Source of the DNA: Nevskia sp.
GTDB taxonomy: Bacteria > Pseudomonadota > Gammaproteobacteria > Nevskiales > Nevskiaceae
DNA length: 64,000 bases
Direction of reading: 5' to 3'
Assembly: GCA_019689635.1 (NCBI GenBank)
Contig: JADGHB010000011.1
Span: forward strand, 1 to 64,000
The notes under the pieces are model-generated. The model ran no database searches. It worked only from the letters and a program-made list of their open reading frames with translations, and was not told the DNA's origin. The position numbers and the translations under genes are program-made. How positions within the stretch are numbered: the first letter of the stretch is position 1; every line of letters starts with the position of its first letter. Positions 44,880-50,636 of this stretch are shown here, piece by piece.

Positions 44880-46123
44880 TGGACCACTTCGACTATCGCG
44901 GCGGCGAGCTGTACGCGGAGCAGGTGCCGCTTTCCGCCATCGCCGCGCGCTACGGCACGCCGACCTACGTTTATTCGCGCGCCACGCTCACGCGCCACTA
45001 CCACGCCTTCGATCGGGCGCTGGCCGGGCTGGATCACCGCGTGTGCTATGCGGTCAAGGCCAATGCCAATCTCGCCGTGCTGCAAGTGCTGGCGCGGCTC
45101 GGCGCCGGTTTCGACATCGTTTCCGGCGGGGAATTGGCGCGTGCCTTGCGCGCCGGCGCCGACCCCGGCGGCATCGTGTTCTCCGGCGTGGGCAAGCGCG
45201 CCGACGAGATGCGCGCGGCCCTGGATGCGGGGATCTGCTGCTTCAACGTCGAGTCCGAAGCCGAGCTGCTGCGCCTCGACGCGCTGGCGCGCGAGCGCGG
45301 CCAGCGCGCGCCGGTGGCGCTGCGCGTGAACCCCGACGTGGACGCGCGCACCCATCCCTACATTTCCACCGGCCTGAAGGAGAACAAGTTCGGCATCGAT
45401 CTCGTCCAAGCCGAACGTCTGTACCGCCGCGCGGCGGCCTTGCCCGGCATCGAGCTGCGCGGTGTGGCCTGCCACATCGGCTCGCAGTTGTGCACGATCG
45501 AACCCTTCCTCGATGCGCTCGTCCGCGTGCTCGCGCTGGTGGACCGGCTCGCGGACGCCGGCATCCGGCTCGCGCAGCTCGACGTCGGCGGCGGGCTGGG
45601 GGTGCGCTACCGCGACGAGACGCCGCCCGAGCCCGACGCCTGGGCGCGCGCGCTGCGGCCGCTGCTGGAAGGCTGCCATCTTAAGGTGCTGTGCGAACCC
45701 GGGCGCGCCATCGCCGGCAACGCCGGAGTGCTGCTCACGCGCGTGGAGCTGCTCAAGCCCACCGCGCACAAGAACTTCGCGGTGCTCGACGCGGCCATGA
45801 ACGATCTCATCCGGCCTTCGTTCTACGACGCCTGGCATGCGGTGCTGCCGGTGCGGCCGCGCGCCGAGCCGCCGCAGCGCTGGGAGCTGGTCGGGCCGGT
45901 GTGCGAAACCGGCGACTGGCTGGCGCACGACCGCGAGCTGGCGCTGGCCGAAGGCGATCTGCTTGTCTTCCGCACCGCCGGGGCCTACGGATTCGCGATG
46001 AGTTCCAGCTACAACTCGCGCCCGCGCGCTGCCGAGGTGCTGGTGGACGGCGACCAGATGCACCTGGTCCGCGCGCGCGAGACGCTCGACGACCTGTGGC
46101 GCGGGGAGTCGCTGCTGCCGTGA
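44879..46123 (+). CDS. lysA: Diaminopimelate decarboxylase
   Basis: This PLP enzyme of 414 residues converts meso-diaminopimelate to lysine. The PLP lysine is in YAVKANANLAV near residue 60. CHIGSQL, LDVGGGLGVRY and CEPGRAIAGNAG are the family motifs, and the C-terminal VCETGDWLAHDRELA with the substrate Cys is present. The start GTG 44879 overlaps the lptM stop by one base. The stop is the TGA in the GTGA overlap with polA. The order lptM-lysA is conserved in gammaproteobacteria. Confidence 0.95.
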   Translation: MDHFDYRGGELYAEQVPLSAIAARYGTPTYVYSRATLTRHYHAFDRALAGLDHRVCYAVKANANLAVLQVLARLGAGFDIVSGGELARALRAGADPGGIVFSGVGKRADEMRAALDAGICCFNVESEAELLRLDALARERGQRAPVALRVNPDVDARTHPYISTGLKENKFGIDLVQAERLYRRAAALPGIELRGVACHIGSQLCTIEPFLDALVRVLALVDRLADAGIRLAQLDVGGGLGVRYRDETPPEPDAWARALRPLLEGCHLKVLCEPGRAIAGNAGVLLTRVELLKPTAHKNFAVLDAAMNDLIRPSFYDAWHAVLPVRPRAEPPQRWELVGPVCETGDWLAHDRELALAEGDLLVFRTAGAYGFAMSSSYNSRPRAAEVLVDGDQMHLVRARETLDDLWRGESLLP

Positions 46124-48894
46124 CGACCACCACCCAAGCCGCGCCACCGCCCGTCATCCTGGTGGACGGTTCCGGCTGGCTGTTCCGCGCCTATCACGCC
46201 TTGCCGCCGCTGGCCAATTCCAAGGGCGAGCCGACCGGTGCGGTGTTTGGCATGCTCAACATGCTGCGCAAACTGGTGCGCGAGTACCACCCGCAGCGCA
46301 TCGCGGTGGTGTTCGACGCGCCGGGCAAGACGTTTCGCGACAATTTGTACGCCGGCTACAAGGCCACGCGCGACGCAACGCCGGAGGACTTGTCGGCGCA
46401 GATGCCCGCGATCCTCGAGCTGGTGCAGGCGCTGGGCCTGCCGCTGCTGCAGATCGAGGGCGTGGAGGCCGACGACGTCATCGCCACGCTCGCCCAGGAC
46501 GCCAAGCGCGCCGGACACGAGGTCTTGCTGGTGACCAGCGACAAGGATCTCGCCCAGCTCGTGGATCCCCGCGTGGCGCTGCTCGACACCATGAAGAACC
46601 GCCGACTCGATCCCGCCGGCGTGCGGGAGAAGTTCGGGGTGCCGCCGGAGAAGATCGTCGATTACCTGGCGCTGGTGGGCGATGCCAGCGACAACATCCC
46701 GGGCGTGCCACTGGTGGGGCCGAAGACCGCGGCCAGGTGGCTGGCCGATTACGGCAGCCTCGACGGCGTGATCGCGCACGCATCCGAGATCAAGGGCAAG
46801 GCCGGCGAGAACCTGCGCGCGCATCTCGACCAGCTTGCGCTGTCGCGCGAGCTGGCGACGGTGCGCCGCGATCTCAAACTGCCGCTGGGCCTCGACCAGC
46901 TCGCGCCGCGACCGGCCGACCGGGAACGTCTCGCCGCGCTCTACCGCCGGCTGGAATTCAACCGCCTGCTCGAAGAACTGCAGCAGGAGGACGCCGGGGG
47001 CGGAAAAAACGAGTCGCCGCCCAAAGTCGCCTCGGAGAGCTCACCCGCCACCCGCGCCGAACTGGTGCTGAGCGCGGAGGCCTTGGCGGGAATGCTCGCA
47101 AAATTGAGCGCGGCACCGCTGATCTGCGTGGACACCGAAACCGACAGCCTGGATGCCATGCGCGCGCGCCTGGTGGGCCTGTCTTTCGCGGTCGAGGCCG
47201 GCCACGGCTGGTACGTGCCGGTGGGCCACGATTATCTGGGTGCGCCCAGGCAGCTCGACCGCGACGAGGTCCTGGCGCGGCTCAAGCCCGTGCTCGAGGA
47301 TCCCGGCAAGCCCAAGCTCGGCCAGCACATCAAGTACGACCTCAACGTGCTGTATCGCCACGGCGTGAAGCTGCACGGCGTGGCTCACGACACCATGCTG
47401 CAAAGCTACGTGCTCGACGCGGCCGGCAACCGCCACGACATGGACACCTTGGCGGAGAAATATCTCGACCACCGCACCATCCACTACGAGGACGTGACCG
47501 GCAAGGGCAAGGGGCAGCTCAGCTTCAACCAGGTGGCGATCGACAAGGCCGCCGCCTACTCCGCCGAGGACGCCGACATCACCTTGCGCCTGCACCGGGT
47601 GCTGTATCCGCGAGTGTGCGAAGTCGAGGCGCTCAAGCGCGTGTACCACGAGATCGAGATGCCGCTGGTGCCAGTGCTGGCCAAGATGGAGCGCGACGGC
47701 GTGAAAGTGGATGCCGCCTTGCTCGCGCGCATCAGCCAGGAACTGGCCGTGCGCATGGACGAGCTGCAGCGCGCGGCATGGCAGGAAGCCGCCGGAGAGT
47801 TCAATCTCGGCTCGCCCAAGCAGTTGCAGACCGTGCTTTACGAGCGCCTGCAACTGCCGGTGCTCAGCCGGACGCCGAAAGGCGATCCCTCGACCGCCGA
47901 GGATGTGCTGGAGGACCTCGCTTTACGGCACCCCTTGCCGCGCCTGATCCTGGAATGGCGCGCGATGCAGAAGCTGCGCTCCACTTACGCCGAGAATTTG
48001 CCGCAGCAGATCAACCCCGAAACGGGGCGCATCCACACCAGCTATCACCAGGCGGTGGCCGCCACCGGACGGCTGTCCTCTTCCGATCCCAACCTGCAGA
48101 ACATCCCGGTGCGCACGGCGGAGGGCCGCCGCATCCGCCAGGCCTTCATCGCCGAGCCCGGTAATGCCCTGCTGTCCATCGACTACTCGCAGATCGAGCT
48201 GCGCCTGATGGCGCATCTGTCCGGCGATGCGCGGCTGCGCGAGGCTTTCGCGCGCGGGCTGGACATCCACCAGGCCACCGCCGCCGAGGTGTTCGGCCGC
48301 GCCCTGGAAGAAGTGGACGCCGAGCAGCGGCGCGCGGCCAAGGCGATCAACTTCGGCCTGATCTACGGCATGTCGGCTTTCGGCCTGTCGCGCCAGCTCG
48401 CCATTCCGCGCAACGAGGCGGCCGATTACATCGAGCGTTTCTTCGCGCGCTATCCCGGCGTGCGCCGCTTCATGGACGAAACGCGTAGCCAGGCACGCCG
48501 CCGCGGCTACGTGGAGACGCTGTTCGGCCGGCGCTTGTATCTGCCCAACATCAACTCGCGCAACGCCGCGCAGCGGCAGTACGCCGAGCGCACCGCGATC
48601 AACGCGCCGCTGCAAGGCACCGCCGCCGATCTCATCAAGCTGGCGATGATCGATCTCGCCGCCTGGCTCGAACGCGAGGCGCCGCAGGTGCGCATGATTA
48701 TGCAGGTGCACGACGAGCTGGTGTTCGAGGGGCCCGAGGCGGTGCTGCGCGAAGCGGCCCCGGTGCTGGCTCTGCGTATGGTGAAGATCGTCAAGCTCAC
48801 GGTTCCGCTCGTGGCCGACTGGGGGCTGGGTCCGGACTGGGATGCGAGCCATTCGAGCCAAGGCCACGCCAGCAGCGAAGATCAAGGCAGTTAG
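46120..48894 (+). CDS. polA: DNA polymerase I
   Basis: This polymerase of 924 residues fills gaps and removes RNA primers. An N-terminal 5'-3' exonuclease spans about residues 1-290 (ILVDGSGWLFRAYHALP). An intact 3'-5' proofreading domain has CVDTETDS near 335. The polymerase domain has motif A DYSQIELRLMAHLSGD near 688 and motif C QVHDELVFE near 865. It starts with GTG 46120 in a GTGA overlap with lysA. A long gap with a candidate small RNA follows, then engB on the other strand. Confidence 0.96.
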   Translation: MTTTTQAAPPPVILVDGSGWLFRAYHALPPLANSKGEPTGAVFGMLNMLRKLVREYHPQRIAVVFDAPGKTFRDNLYAGYKATRDATPEDLSAQMPAILELVQALGLPLLQIEGVEADDVIATLAQDAKRAGHEVLLVTSDKDLAQLVDPRVALLDTMKNRRLDPAGVREKFGVPPEKIVDYLALVGDASDNIPGVPLVGPKTAARWLADYGSLDGVIAHASEIKGKAGENLRAHLDQLALSRELATVRRDLKLPLGLDQLAPRPADRERLAALYRRLEFNRLLEELQQEDAGGGKNESPPKVASESSPATRAELVLSAEALAGMLAKLSAAPLICVDTETDSLDAMRARLVGLSFAVEAGHGWYVPVGHDYLGAPRQLDRDEVLARLKPVLEDPGKPKLGQHIKYDLNVLYRHGVKLHGVAHDTMLQSYVLDAAGNRHDMDTLAEKYLDHRTIHYEDVTGKGKGQLSFNQVAIDKAAAYSAEDADITLRLHRVLYPRVCEVEALKRVYHEIEMPLVPVLAKMERDGVKVDAALLARISQELAVRMDELQRAAWQEAAGEFNLGSPKQLQTVLYERLQLPVLSRTPKGDPSTAEDVLEDLALRHPLPRLILEWRAMQKLRSTYAENLPQQINPETGRIHTSYHQAVAATGRLSSSDPNLQNIPVRTAEGRRIRQAFIAEPGNALLSIDYSQIELRLMAHLSGDARLREAFARGLDIHQATAAEVFGRALEEVDAEQRRAAKAINFGLIYGMSAFGLSRQLAIPRNEAADYIERFFARYPGVRRFMDETRSQARRRGYVETLFGRRLYLPNINSRNAAQRQYAERTAINAPLQGTAADLIKLAMIDLAAWLEREAPQVRMIMQVHDELVFEGPEAVLREAAPVLALRMVKIVKLTVPLVADWGLGPDWDASHSSQGHASSEDQGS

Positions 48895-49044
48895 CCAACG
48901 ATCGGCATAAATAGCTTCGGTTAGCCGCAATTGCTCAGAGCGGGACTCGGGCAGAAAACGCAACAAAGTTTTATTGTTATTCAGACAGTTACAGATTATT
49001 TATTGGCTTTGCGCGCCGCCGCGGGAAAATTTGTTGCAACGCGG

Positions 49045-49074
49045 TTGAACTTTCGCCCCAGGACCTCATCTAAT
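49045..49074 (+). promoter_or_regulatory. Sigma-70-like promoter of the candidate small RNA
   Basis: The -35 TTGAAC (49045-49050) is 18 bp from the -10 TCTAAT (49069-49074, one mismatch to TATAAT). The expected start is near 49081, exactly where the first predicted hairpin begins. The rest of 48895-49044 shows only an AT-rich stretch (48967-49005) and no other signal that I can see. Confidence 0.6.
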
Positions 49075-49080
49075 CCTGCG

Positions 49081-49193
49081 AACGGTGACTCCCTTTCCCG
49101 TTCTCCGCCTTCACTCCCTGGGCGGATCTTCCGGCACCCCCAAGCCGGAGCTCGTTGCCCGATGGGTTCCCCCGACCCATCGGGCATTTTTTA
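49081..49193 (+). ncRNA. Candidate small RNA with four C-rich hairpin loops (polA-engB gap)
   Basis: The predicted 113-nt RNA folds into four consecutive hairpins. H1: 49081-49085 with 49098-49102, loop tgactccctttc. H2: 49105-49109 with 49121-49125, loop ttcactccctg. H3: 49130-49135 with 49144-49149, loop acccccaa. H4: a 12-bp terminator stem, loop tcccccg. Every loop has a CUCCC or CCCCC run, complementary to Shine-Dalgarno sequences. The polA-engB gap is where Spot 42 lies in E. coli and ErsA in Pseudomonas, so a positional relative is likely. The upstream promoter and downstream terminator fit an independent gene. Confidence 0.72.
49156..49193 (+). terminator. Rho-independent terminator of the candidate small RNA
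   Basis: A perfect 12-bp stem (49156-49167 with 49175-49186) has a 7-nt loop and a run of six T (49187-49192). It is oriented for plus-strand transcripts only. It also could stop readthrough from polA. Confidence 0.9.
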
Positions 49194-49261
49194 TTCGGCC
49201 CGGCCGAATGAAAATACCAGCCTGCGTGCTGCGCGACGAGGCCATCCGCGGCCCCGCTGGC

Positions 49262-49879
49262 TCAAGCGCGCAGATCGAGCCAGCGCGCGACCACCGCGCG
49301 CGCTTCGTCGACGCCCTCGCGCGTGAGCGCCGAAAAAACTTGCACGCCGATCGCGGGGTCGAGCCGGCTCAGTTCCCTTTTCACGGCCGAGGCCGCGGCG
49401 CGCGCCGCGCCGCGCCCGAGCTTGTCGGCCTTGCTCAAGAGTACATGCACCGGTCGCGCGTGCACGCGGTTCCAATCCAGCATCTGCCGATCGAGCGCGG
49501 TCAGCGGATGGCGGATGTCCATCACCAAGATCAGGCCGCGCAGGTTGACGCGCGACTCGAGATAACCGCCCACCAGCGCGTTCCAGCTCCGGCGCAGCGT
49601 TTCGGGGACCGCGGCGTAACCGTAGCCCGGCAGGTCCACCAGACGTGCGCCGCAGGGCAAGCCGAACAAATTGATGAGCTGCGTGCGGCCCGGCGTTTTG
49701 CTCACGCGTGCGAGCTGCTTGACGCCGCACAGTGCGTTCATGGCGCTGGATTTCCCGGCGTTGGAACGGCCGGCGAAGGCGGCTTCCGGGCGCTCATCCG
49801 CCGGAAGCTGCGCCAGCCGCGCCGCCGAAGTCAGGAACTGCGCGTGCGCCAAGGGGTTCGCGATCGACGGCGAGGTCAT
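49262..49879 (-). CDS. engB: Ribosome biogenesis GTP-binding protein EngB (YihA/YsxC)
   Basis: This is an essential GTPase of 205 residues for 50S subunit assembly. Walker A AGRSNAGKSSAMNAL is near residue 35, G2/G3 TPGRTQLINLF and DLPGYGYA near 61-84, and G4 SKADKL near 147. The start is ATG 49879; upstream in-frame codons run into the cytochrome promoter area. It is convergent with polA and the small RNA, and divergent from the cytochrome c4 gene, with about 90 bp between starts. Confidence 0.95.
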   Translation of the reverse strand: MTSPSIANPLAHAQFLTSAARLAQLPADERPEAAFAGRSNAGKSSAMNALCGVKQLARVSKTPGRTQLINLFGLPCGARLVDLPGYGYAAVPETLRRSWNALVGGYLESRVNLRGLILVMDIRHPLTALDRQMLDWNRVHARPVHVLLSKADKLGRGAARAAASAVKRELSRLDPAIGVQVFSALTREGVDEARAVVARWLDLRA

Positions 49880-49970
49880 GGAAGGCGGGCATGGTGTAGA
49901 ATTCGCGCGCTCAAATTCTAACCATCGGCGCGCACCCCCGACGTACGCGCGCACGTTTTTGGAGTCCTGC

Positions 49971-50636
49971 ATGAAGCGCGTACTGCTCGCCCTGACCCTC
50001 TGTGCGCCGGTACTGGCCCTGGGAGAAGAATCTCCGGCTCCTGCCGCCAAGGATGTCTTCGTGCAAGGCGATGCGACTGCCGGGGCCAGCAAGGCCGCGG
50101 TGTGCTACGCCTGTCATGGTCCGGGCGGCAACGGCGCGATCAATCCGCAGTGGCCCAAACTCGCCGGCCAGCATGCCGCCTACCTCTACGAGCAGCTCGG
50201 CAAGTTCAAGTCCGGGCAGCGCAAGAATCCGGTGATGCTCGGTCAAGTCGCCGCGCTCCAGGACCAGGACATGCGGGACCTGGCGGCATACTTCGCCGCG
50301 CAGAAACCGGTACCGGGCGTGGGCAGCAAGGACGCCGTCGCGGTGGCCGAGCCGCTGTACCGCGGCGGCGACGTGGCGCGCGGCGTGCTGGCCTGCGCCG
50401 CCTGCCACGGTCCCGAGGGTGCCGGCAACGCCGCGGCCGGTTTCCCGCGCGTGTCCGGCCAGAACGCGGCCTACGTCGCCAACCAGTTGCACGCCTACGC
50501 CACCTGCGGCCAGAACGATTTCAAGAACTGCGACCGCGGCGGGGACGGCAAGGGTCAGATCATGTCGGCGATCGCCGCCAAGCTGACCGAGAACGAAATC
50601 CAGGCGCTGGCGTCTTATGTGTCCGGTTTGCAATAG
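49971..50636 (+). CDS. Diheme cytochrome c4
   Basis: This periplasmic electron carrier of 221 residues has two c-type heme sites, CYACHGPGGNG near residue 45 and CAACHGPEGAG near 143, with matching C-terminal Met-containing segments (NPVMLGQ and QIMSAIAAKL) as likely axial ligands. It has a signal peptide (LLALTLCAPVLALG). The two halves are related by internal duplication, typical for c4. The gene is directly upstream of dsbA (9 bp), a common arrangement. Confidence 0.95.
   Translation: MKRVLLALTLCAPVLALGEESPAPAAKDVFVQGDATAGASKAAVCYACHGPGGNGAINPQWPKLAGQHAAYLYEQLGKFKSGQRKNPVMLGQVAALQDQDMRDLAAYFAAQKPVPGVGSKDAVAVAEPLYRGGDVARGVLACAACHGPEGAGNAAAGFPRVSGQNAAYVANQLHAYATCGQNDFKNCDRGGDGKGQIMSAIAAKLTENEIQALASYVSGLQ

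Follow-up and report, generated by a model that had tools for sequence, protein, structure and literature searches.

A predicted small RNA with C-rich loops between polA and engB of Nevskia sp. and its relation to anti-hemB, sX13 and ErsA

Introduction

In Xanthomonas, the small RNA (sRNA) sX13 is encoded downstream of polA and folds into successive stems with apical C-rich loops. The portion of the original study that was available (PMC3771888) gives three loops of 4C, 4C and 5C, describes the repression, independently of Hfq, of mRNAs with G-rich motifs near their start, and reports homologues only in the Xanthomonadaceae. According to the sections available of PMC8575079 and PMC5819304, ErsA (Pseudomon-1) maps to the polA-engB region and is switched on by sigma22; it acts on several targets in an Hfq-dependent manner and carries a U-rich unpaired targeting domain between stems 1 and 2. 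Anti-hemB (RF02837), also known as Burkholderia RNA 7 and as ncS04 of B. cenocepacia, is expressed and binds Hfq (PMC5688073, available in part). Finally, the accessible parts of PMC11722255, PMC5688073 and PMC10987360 show that S17 of Bordetella and ncS27 repress via CU-rich stretches at ribosome-binding sites.

In Rfam, the clan column is empty for anti-hemB, sX13 and ErsA. Our literature search found no paper that names both sX13 and ErsA; the papers found with anti-hemB and sRNA name neither of them in the main text, and none was found that joins all three, as judged by title and the start of the abstract.

Here we describe an sRNA gene in a stretch of 64,000 nt from Nevskia sp. (contig JADGHB010000011.1, positions 1 to 64,000), hereafter the window. 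By score its RNA is formally not anti-hemB, sX13 or ErsA; on sequence comparison it belongs to a wider family that holds at least anti-hemB and sX13.

The locus and the fold of the RNA

The gene lies in the gap between polA, which is upstream, and engB, which is convergent with it (Table 1), the very locus of Spot 42 and ErsA, as the original prediction had stated.

Table 1. Features of the polA-engB gap in the window (positions are those of the window)
Feature	Position	Strand	Remark
polA reading frame	45691..48894	+	listed ORF begins 5' of the real gene start
-35 element GAACTT, sigmaE/RpoE-type	49047..49052	+	
-10 element TCTAA, 16 nt past the -35 element	49069..49073	+	predicted start near 49080
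sRNA, predicted transcript of about 114 nt	49080..49193	+	fold, homologues, covariance model
Hairpin 1, CUCCC loop	49080..49103	+	C-rich in own family, not in family f6
Hairpin 2, loop UCACUCCCU	49104..49126	+	most conserved element
Hairpin 3, loop ACCCCCAA	49129..49150	+	
Hairpin 4 = terminator stem, CCCCC loop	49156..49186	+	
Terminator U run	49187..49192	+	
engB/yihA reading frame	49262..50092	-	convergent with the sRNA

Folding confirms the four consecutive hairpins with exposed CUCCC or CCCCC loops that had been read from the sequence: the segment 49079-49196 has a folding energy of -56.9 kcal/mol (z -6.6) that none of 200 shuffles equals, and the linkers separating the hairpins measure 0, 2 and 5 nt. 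The C-runs of loops 1 to 4 are CUCCC, CUCCC, CCCCC and CCCCC (49089-49093, 49114-49118, 49137-49141 and 49169-49173), with probabilities of being unpaired of 0.88-1.0. That the regularity of the four loops exceeds chance is borne out by dinucleotide shuffles, 1 in 2000 of which placed CCC in four hairpin loops and 33 in 2000 in three. The terminator had been described as a 12-bp stem with six T; the terminator scan gives 13 pairs followed by six T, the longest of three terminator-like sites within 48800-49350. The reading as an sRNA with loops of the anti-Shine-Dalgarno type is upheld.

Conservation, tandem arrays and covariation in the order

The original prediction had made its case depend on conservation in close relatives, and the sRNA was found in each of the other 17 genomes of the genus at E 4.3e-23 or better. 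Across the order, the anti-hemB model RF02837 matches 83 of 85 genomes at E 0.01 and 16 of 85 over its cut-off. We collected 123 distinct copies from 65 order genomes, all downstream of polA and, where engB was fetched, before engB; the set comprises matches with E of 1e-4 or lower at loci where polA was present. The nhmmer search that yielded the copies covered the polA strand only, and the statement that the copies share one strand rests on separate two-strand searches. There are also order matches with neither polA nor engB in the fetched stretches (L078, L081, L083, L084 and L088, from G024, G012, G026, G007 and G010).

Arrays of 2-6 copies, with a median spacing of 230 nt, occur in 27 order genomes. 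In the three-copy arrays of G053 (L064) and G058 (L074), counterpart positions score 0.98-1.0 in alignment score per length and array neighbours 0.79-0.83; since counterparts match far better than neighbours, the copies appear to be old paralogues that have been kept apart.

The loops are nearly invariant while the stems that carry them change. Loop parsing covered 121 of the 123 copies. Hairpin 2 has CUCCC in 120 of the 121, over 31 different 5' stems; at least four C are found in the loop of hairpin 3 in 112 copies and of hairpin 4 in 108, the latter spread across 87 different 5' stems. In 55 copies every one of the four loops bears CCC: the window's own family contributes 51 of its 58, families f2-f5 contribute 4 of their 10, and f6, where hairpin 1 bears a different loop that is not C-rich (0/53), contributes none of its 53. 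Among 18 copies from the own family (f1), 17 of 30 pairs have changed on both sides, as in none of 500 shuffles. The class-wide alignment of 107 sequences shows covariation at 30 of 30 pairs with 94.8% of cells paired, and its covariation score is 0.666 against 0.181 when shuffled and at most 0.079 when slid, in an alignment (A4) that was fitted to the tested structure. The stems and loops expected to be conserved among other polA-engB gaps are thus found, as compensatory stem changes and near-invariant loops.

These data bear on two further readings of the locus. A frame that starts with the GTG at 49085 runs through the RNA (ORF 49085-49921, 278 aa) and is open in the window, and the available part of PMC11722255 reports that the long form of Bordetella S17 encodes a putative 32-residue peptide. 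But the GTG is present in 22 of the 123 copies, the frame from it to hairpin 2 is spread 9/8/5 over the three phases, and the RNA changes by compensatory pairs. On the phase spread we reject the coding frame, and we regard a protein-coding role as extremely improbable. Equally far-fetched is a role of the minus strand, on which the complement of CUCCC is GGGAG and the engB 3' UTR could present GGGAG loops that sequester CsrA/RsmA: the promoter motif and the terminator with its U run are plus-strand features, on which grounds we reject such a sponge, and at the tandem copies the motif is found on the same strand.

The promoter and its sigma factor

The promoter originally proposed, TTGAAC (49045-49050), 18 nt and TCTAAT (49069-49074), is present letter by letter, but the sigma70 scan rejects it, with a C at position 2 of the -10 element, and a sigma70 promoter is discarded. 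Read two bases further on, this DNA gives GAACTT-N16-TCTAA (49047-49073), a sequence that fits a sigmaE/RpoE-type promoter better than a sigma70 one. Promoters of AlgU have the form GAACTT-N16/17-TCTRA.

The exact pattern GAACTTN{16,17}TCTRA has a single match in the 2.81-Mb genome, and so has the reversed control pattern. For counts upstream of the copies we used a looser motif, GAAC-N2-N16/17-TC-N2-A. It precedes 106 of 121 order copies (shuffle mean 1.4, maximum 5; two of the 123 copies have too little upstream sequence), 36 of 65 class matches flanked by polA or engB (shuffles 0.5), 12 of 15 unflanked class matches (shuffles 0.08) and 9 of 19 further RF02837 matches (shuffles 0.17), the 19 being 20 stretches minus that of ErsA. 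Within tandem arrays, 73 of 85 copies carry the motif, on the same strand, and in 22 of 27 arrays every copy does.

The genome encodes an RpoE that scores 299 bits, over the NCBIfam cut-off. Its gene is followed by an ORF that resembles an anti-sigma factor, judged by position alone (L090:1501-2887, contig C21). The sRNA family might nevertheless be constitutive or controlled by growth phase, its GAAC/TCTRA boxes being read by the housekeeping polymerase (sigma70) or by another ECF sigma factor. This alternative, which we hold to be unlikely, draws on the lack of a GAACTT-type motif in the region upstream of the genome's own rpoE, on five more RpoE-model matches in the genome, all under the cut-off, and on G096 and G248, the sX13-bearing genomes in the class sample, in which no sigmaE-type motif was found upstream of sX13. 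A regulon of one perfect site in 2.81 Mb is odd. Against the alternative, GGAACTT is the -35 box of E. coli RpoE (PMC8103513, available in part) and no sigma70 promoter was recognized by the scan, most tandem copies retain the motif, and ErsA (L219), which is driven by sigma22, has the motif at the same place.

Comparison with anti-hemB

The closest described RNA by score is anti-hemB: the window reaches 49.4 bits with RF02837 (E 1e-10) and misses the cut-off of 49.5 by 0.1 bit. Both have a hairpin with a CUCCCUG loop, a middle hairpin and a terminator; engB is convergent with the window RNA, as it is at the six anti-hemB loci next to hemB and engB that are listed below. The window differs by an extra 5' hairpin with a C-rich loop, by the CCCCC loops of hairpins 3 and 4, and by its upstream neighbour, which is polA and not hemB. 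As a control, the model was run on 14 named genomes, with matches in 5 at E 0.01, in 1 at E 1e-5 and in none over the cut-off.

In the class sample, which the Rfam families and named metagenome-assembled genomes (MAGs) found in it lead us to read as Gammaproteobacteria and the beta group, RF02837 exceeds its cut-off in 13 of 274 genomes. One such locus (L119) lies, like the window RNA, between polA and engB. At six further loci over the cut-off (L248-L251, L256 and L257; 52.9-76.5 bits) the RNA is placed between hemB and engB and remains convergent with the latter; at L200, L253 and L255, which also exceed the cut-off, hemB was found and engB was not. The name anti-hemB would thus be accounted for by the exchange of one neighbour, polA for hemB.

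Tandem copies over the anti-hemB cut-off also occur in other surroundings. Two short ones each are found at L203:3514-3839 and L205:3509-3836, with polA, engB and hemB not found nearby; the ORF adjoining the L203 copies we take to be similar to smpB. A further pair at L254:3493-3758 (G573) likewise has no polA, engB or hemB found near it, and G573 holds four matches of our model R3 (see below) on two contigs.

Comparison with sX13, ErsA, Spot 42 and the toxic small RNAs

The window scores 26.9 bits (E 0.003) with the sX13 model RF02232 and 13.9 bits with the ErsA model RF01719; the cut-off is 50 in both. It shares with sX13 the place downstream of polA and the succession of stems with apical C-rich loops, of which it has four instead of the three described for sX13. 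With ErsA (L219) it shares the polA-engB gap, the strand and a sigmaE-type promoter. The U-rich targeting domain described in the available part of PMC8575079 is absent from the window, given its short linkers, and ErsA L219 is without the CUCCCUG hairpin. ErsA is likely a relative, judging from its place, its promoter and a score that is modest.

Spot 42 occupies the same gap in E. coli (L240). Its model (RF00021) matched neither the window nor any of the 274 class genomes, with E. coli as a positive control, and our model R3 gives Spot 42 18.3 bits, mostly from the terminator; beyond this weak match no relation was detected, and we do not assume homology to Spot 42. In the same E. coli stretch (L240:3588-3801) the CsrC gene lies just past yihA, so that two regulatory RNAs are found in the neighbourhood.

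The toxic small RNA model RF02278 does not match the window up to E 10. The likeness to RF02278/ncS27 and to Bordetella S17 lies in unpaired CU-rich sequence that targets, or in the window RNA would target, ribosome-binding sites. RF02278 RNAs, multicopy in Burkholderia as far as the available parts of PMC5688073 and PMC11722255 show, have two hairpins and dispersed copies, unlike the window. The original prediction had left open whether this is a homologue of a described RNA or an unrelated one with a repeated design: kinship with anti-hemB and sX13, and probably with ErsA, is what we find, and a relation to Spot 42 was not detected.

Spread beyond the order

A covariance model built from the window's own family f1 only (R2) gives the window, a member of its training set, 127.2 bits by construction. 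At E 0.001 it matches 84 of 274 class genomes in 61 families, three of them from the own order, and 190 genomes are without a match. Eighty stretches were fetched from 79 of the 84 (G105 twice), leaving out G000, G039 and G041 of the own order as well as G186 and G333. We call a match flanked if the end of polA or of engB lies at most 2500 nt away on the expected strand. By this rule 65 of the 80 are flanked in the expected orientation (29 by both genes, 14 by polA only, 22 by engB only) and 15 have neither neighbour. CUCCCU is found in 65 of the 80 and absent from 15. In three named gammaproteobacterial MAGs (L032-L034) the RNA lies between polA and engB. Eight of the 15 unflanked loci deviate in one of two ways: L134, L149, L167 and L176 are near cytochrome c4, and at L136:3571-3681, L137:3513-3623, L157:3578-3687 and L174:3511-3635 the match lies in an engB-polA gap on the engB strand and is apparently inverted.

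The R2 matches in G096 and G248, the only two of the 274 class genomes with sX13 over the Rfam cut-off, coincide with the sX13 genes. ErsA exceeds its cut-off in one class genome (G245), and R2 did not find it in this sample. A second model, R3, was built from 107 sequences with no sX13 or ErsA locus in training. It matches L258 and L259 (family f18), which are sX13 by Rfam with 98.6 and 124.5 bits, and scores ErsA L219 at 30.3 bits (E 1.7e-6 in 10.9 kb). Phylum-wide, R3 matches 40 of 299 genomes. In the ErsA family f165 five genomes were matched: in G400, G579 and G627 the match (E 2e-4 to 3.5e-4) falls on ErsA in the polA-engB gap, an identity that Rfam confirms with 126.8-130.9 bits, in G408 it lies elsewhere than ErsA, and the fifth genome is G489; at least G245 and G404 of this family are without a match. 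Thirteen R3-matched genomes lie outside the class; their matches are weak (best E 3.7e-5), and the ErsA matches are no stronger.

Could sRNAs with C-rich loops have arisen separately at polA, such that the likeness to anti-hemB, sX13 and ErsA reflects design and not descent? The window's scores with sX13 and ErsA fall well under the cut-offs, GC-rich terminators lift the score of any such RNA, sX13 homologues are reported from a single bacterial family in the literature cited above, and R2 met just 4 of the 13 class genomes with anti-hemB over the cut-off at E 0.001. Yet R2 lands on the exact places of sX13 and R3 on those of both sX13 and ErsA, although neither model was trained on them; hairpin order, the CUCCCUG loop, promoter, strand and the engB neighbour agree; and outside the class, where matches are weak, none of the genes polA, engB and hemB was found next to the matches in the four genomes examined of the 13. 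We therefore consider convergence quite improbable.

Common descent is the reading that we prefer. It seems reasonably likely that one envelope-stress sRNA between polA and engB was already present in the ancestor of the beta- and gammaproteobacteria, and that anti-hemB, sX13, ErsA and unnamed RNAs in dozens of families descend from it. On this account polA was exchanged for hemB in beta-type loci, the promoter changed in the sX13 lineage, and in the window's order the gene was amplified into tandem arrays in which as many as six copies are maintained separately, most of them behind a sigmaE-type promoter of their own. Members of the family have been named separately in several bacteria, and their unification is a more novel claim than the window RNA itself. 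It would tie together three Rfam families that have no clan, with a common control by sigmaE that can be tested, and, if true, findings on the targets of sX13 and ErsA could carry over to many species.

Proposed mechanism and candidate targets

Judging from the promoter motif, a holoenzyme of the sigmaE/RpoE type would start the RNA near 49080, and transcription would stop at the intrinsic terminator to yield an independent, trans-acting sRNA. The stems would merely present the loops, and the CUCCC and CCCCC loops may base-pair to the G-rich Shine-Dalgarno regions in several mRNAs, keeping ribosomes from entering, such that envelope stress would lower the translation of a set of genes. Several like loops, and tandem genes in many relatives, could multiply the sites available for pairing on each RNA or allow the dose to be graded; the tandem arrays amount to a natural dosage series. 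Transcription, control by sigmaE and targets are here deduced from sequence, and the loop mechanism is transferred by analogy from the relative sX13, for which it was established by experiment. Taken together, we think it likely that the RNA belongs to an old sRNA family of the envelope-stress type at polA-engB, acting in trans through loops that would repress translation at G-rich ribosome-binding sites.

CAGGGAG, the complement of the conserved loop, occurs 3-11 nt before an ATG at 28 sites and the reversed pattern at 7, an excess that any Shine-Dalgarno-like string would partly share. From 20 of the 28 sites we obtained 16 ORFs of at least 60 aa, some of them duplicates from overlapping loci. 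Seven candidate-target ORFs, compared by their first 200 residues, all match Pfam. The predicted candidates are an amino-acid permease, COX1, a pro-kumamolisin, a Tad protein, a saccharopine dehydrogenase, a TonB-receptor plug and a pyridine nucleotide oxidoreductase, whose ATG is apparently internal to a longer gene.
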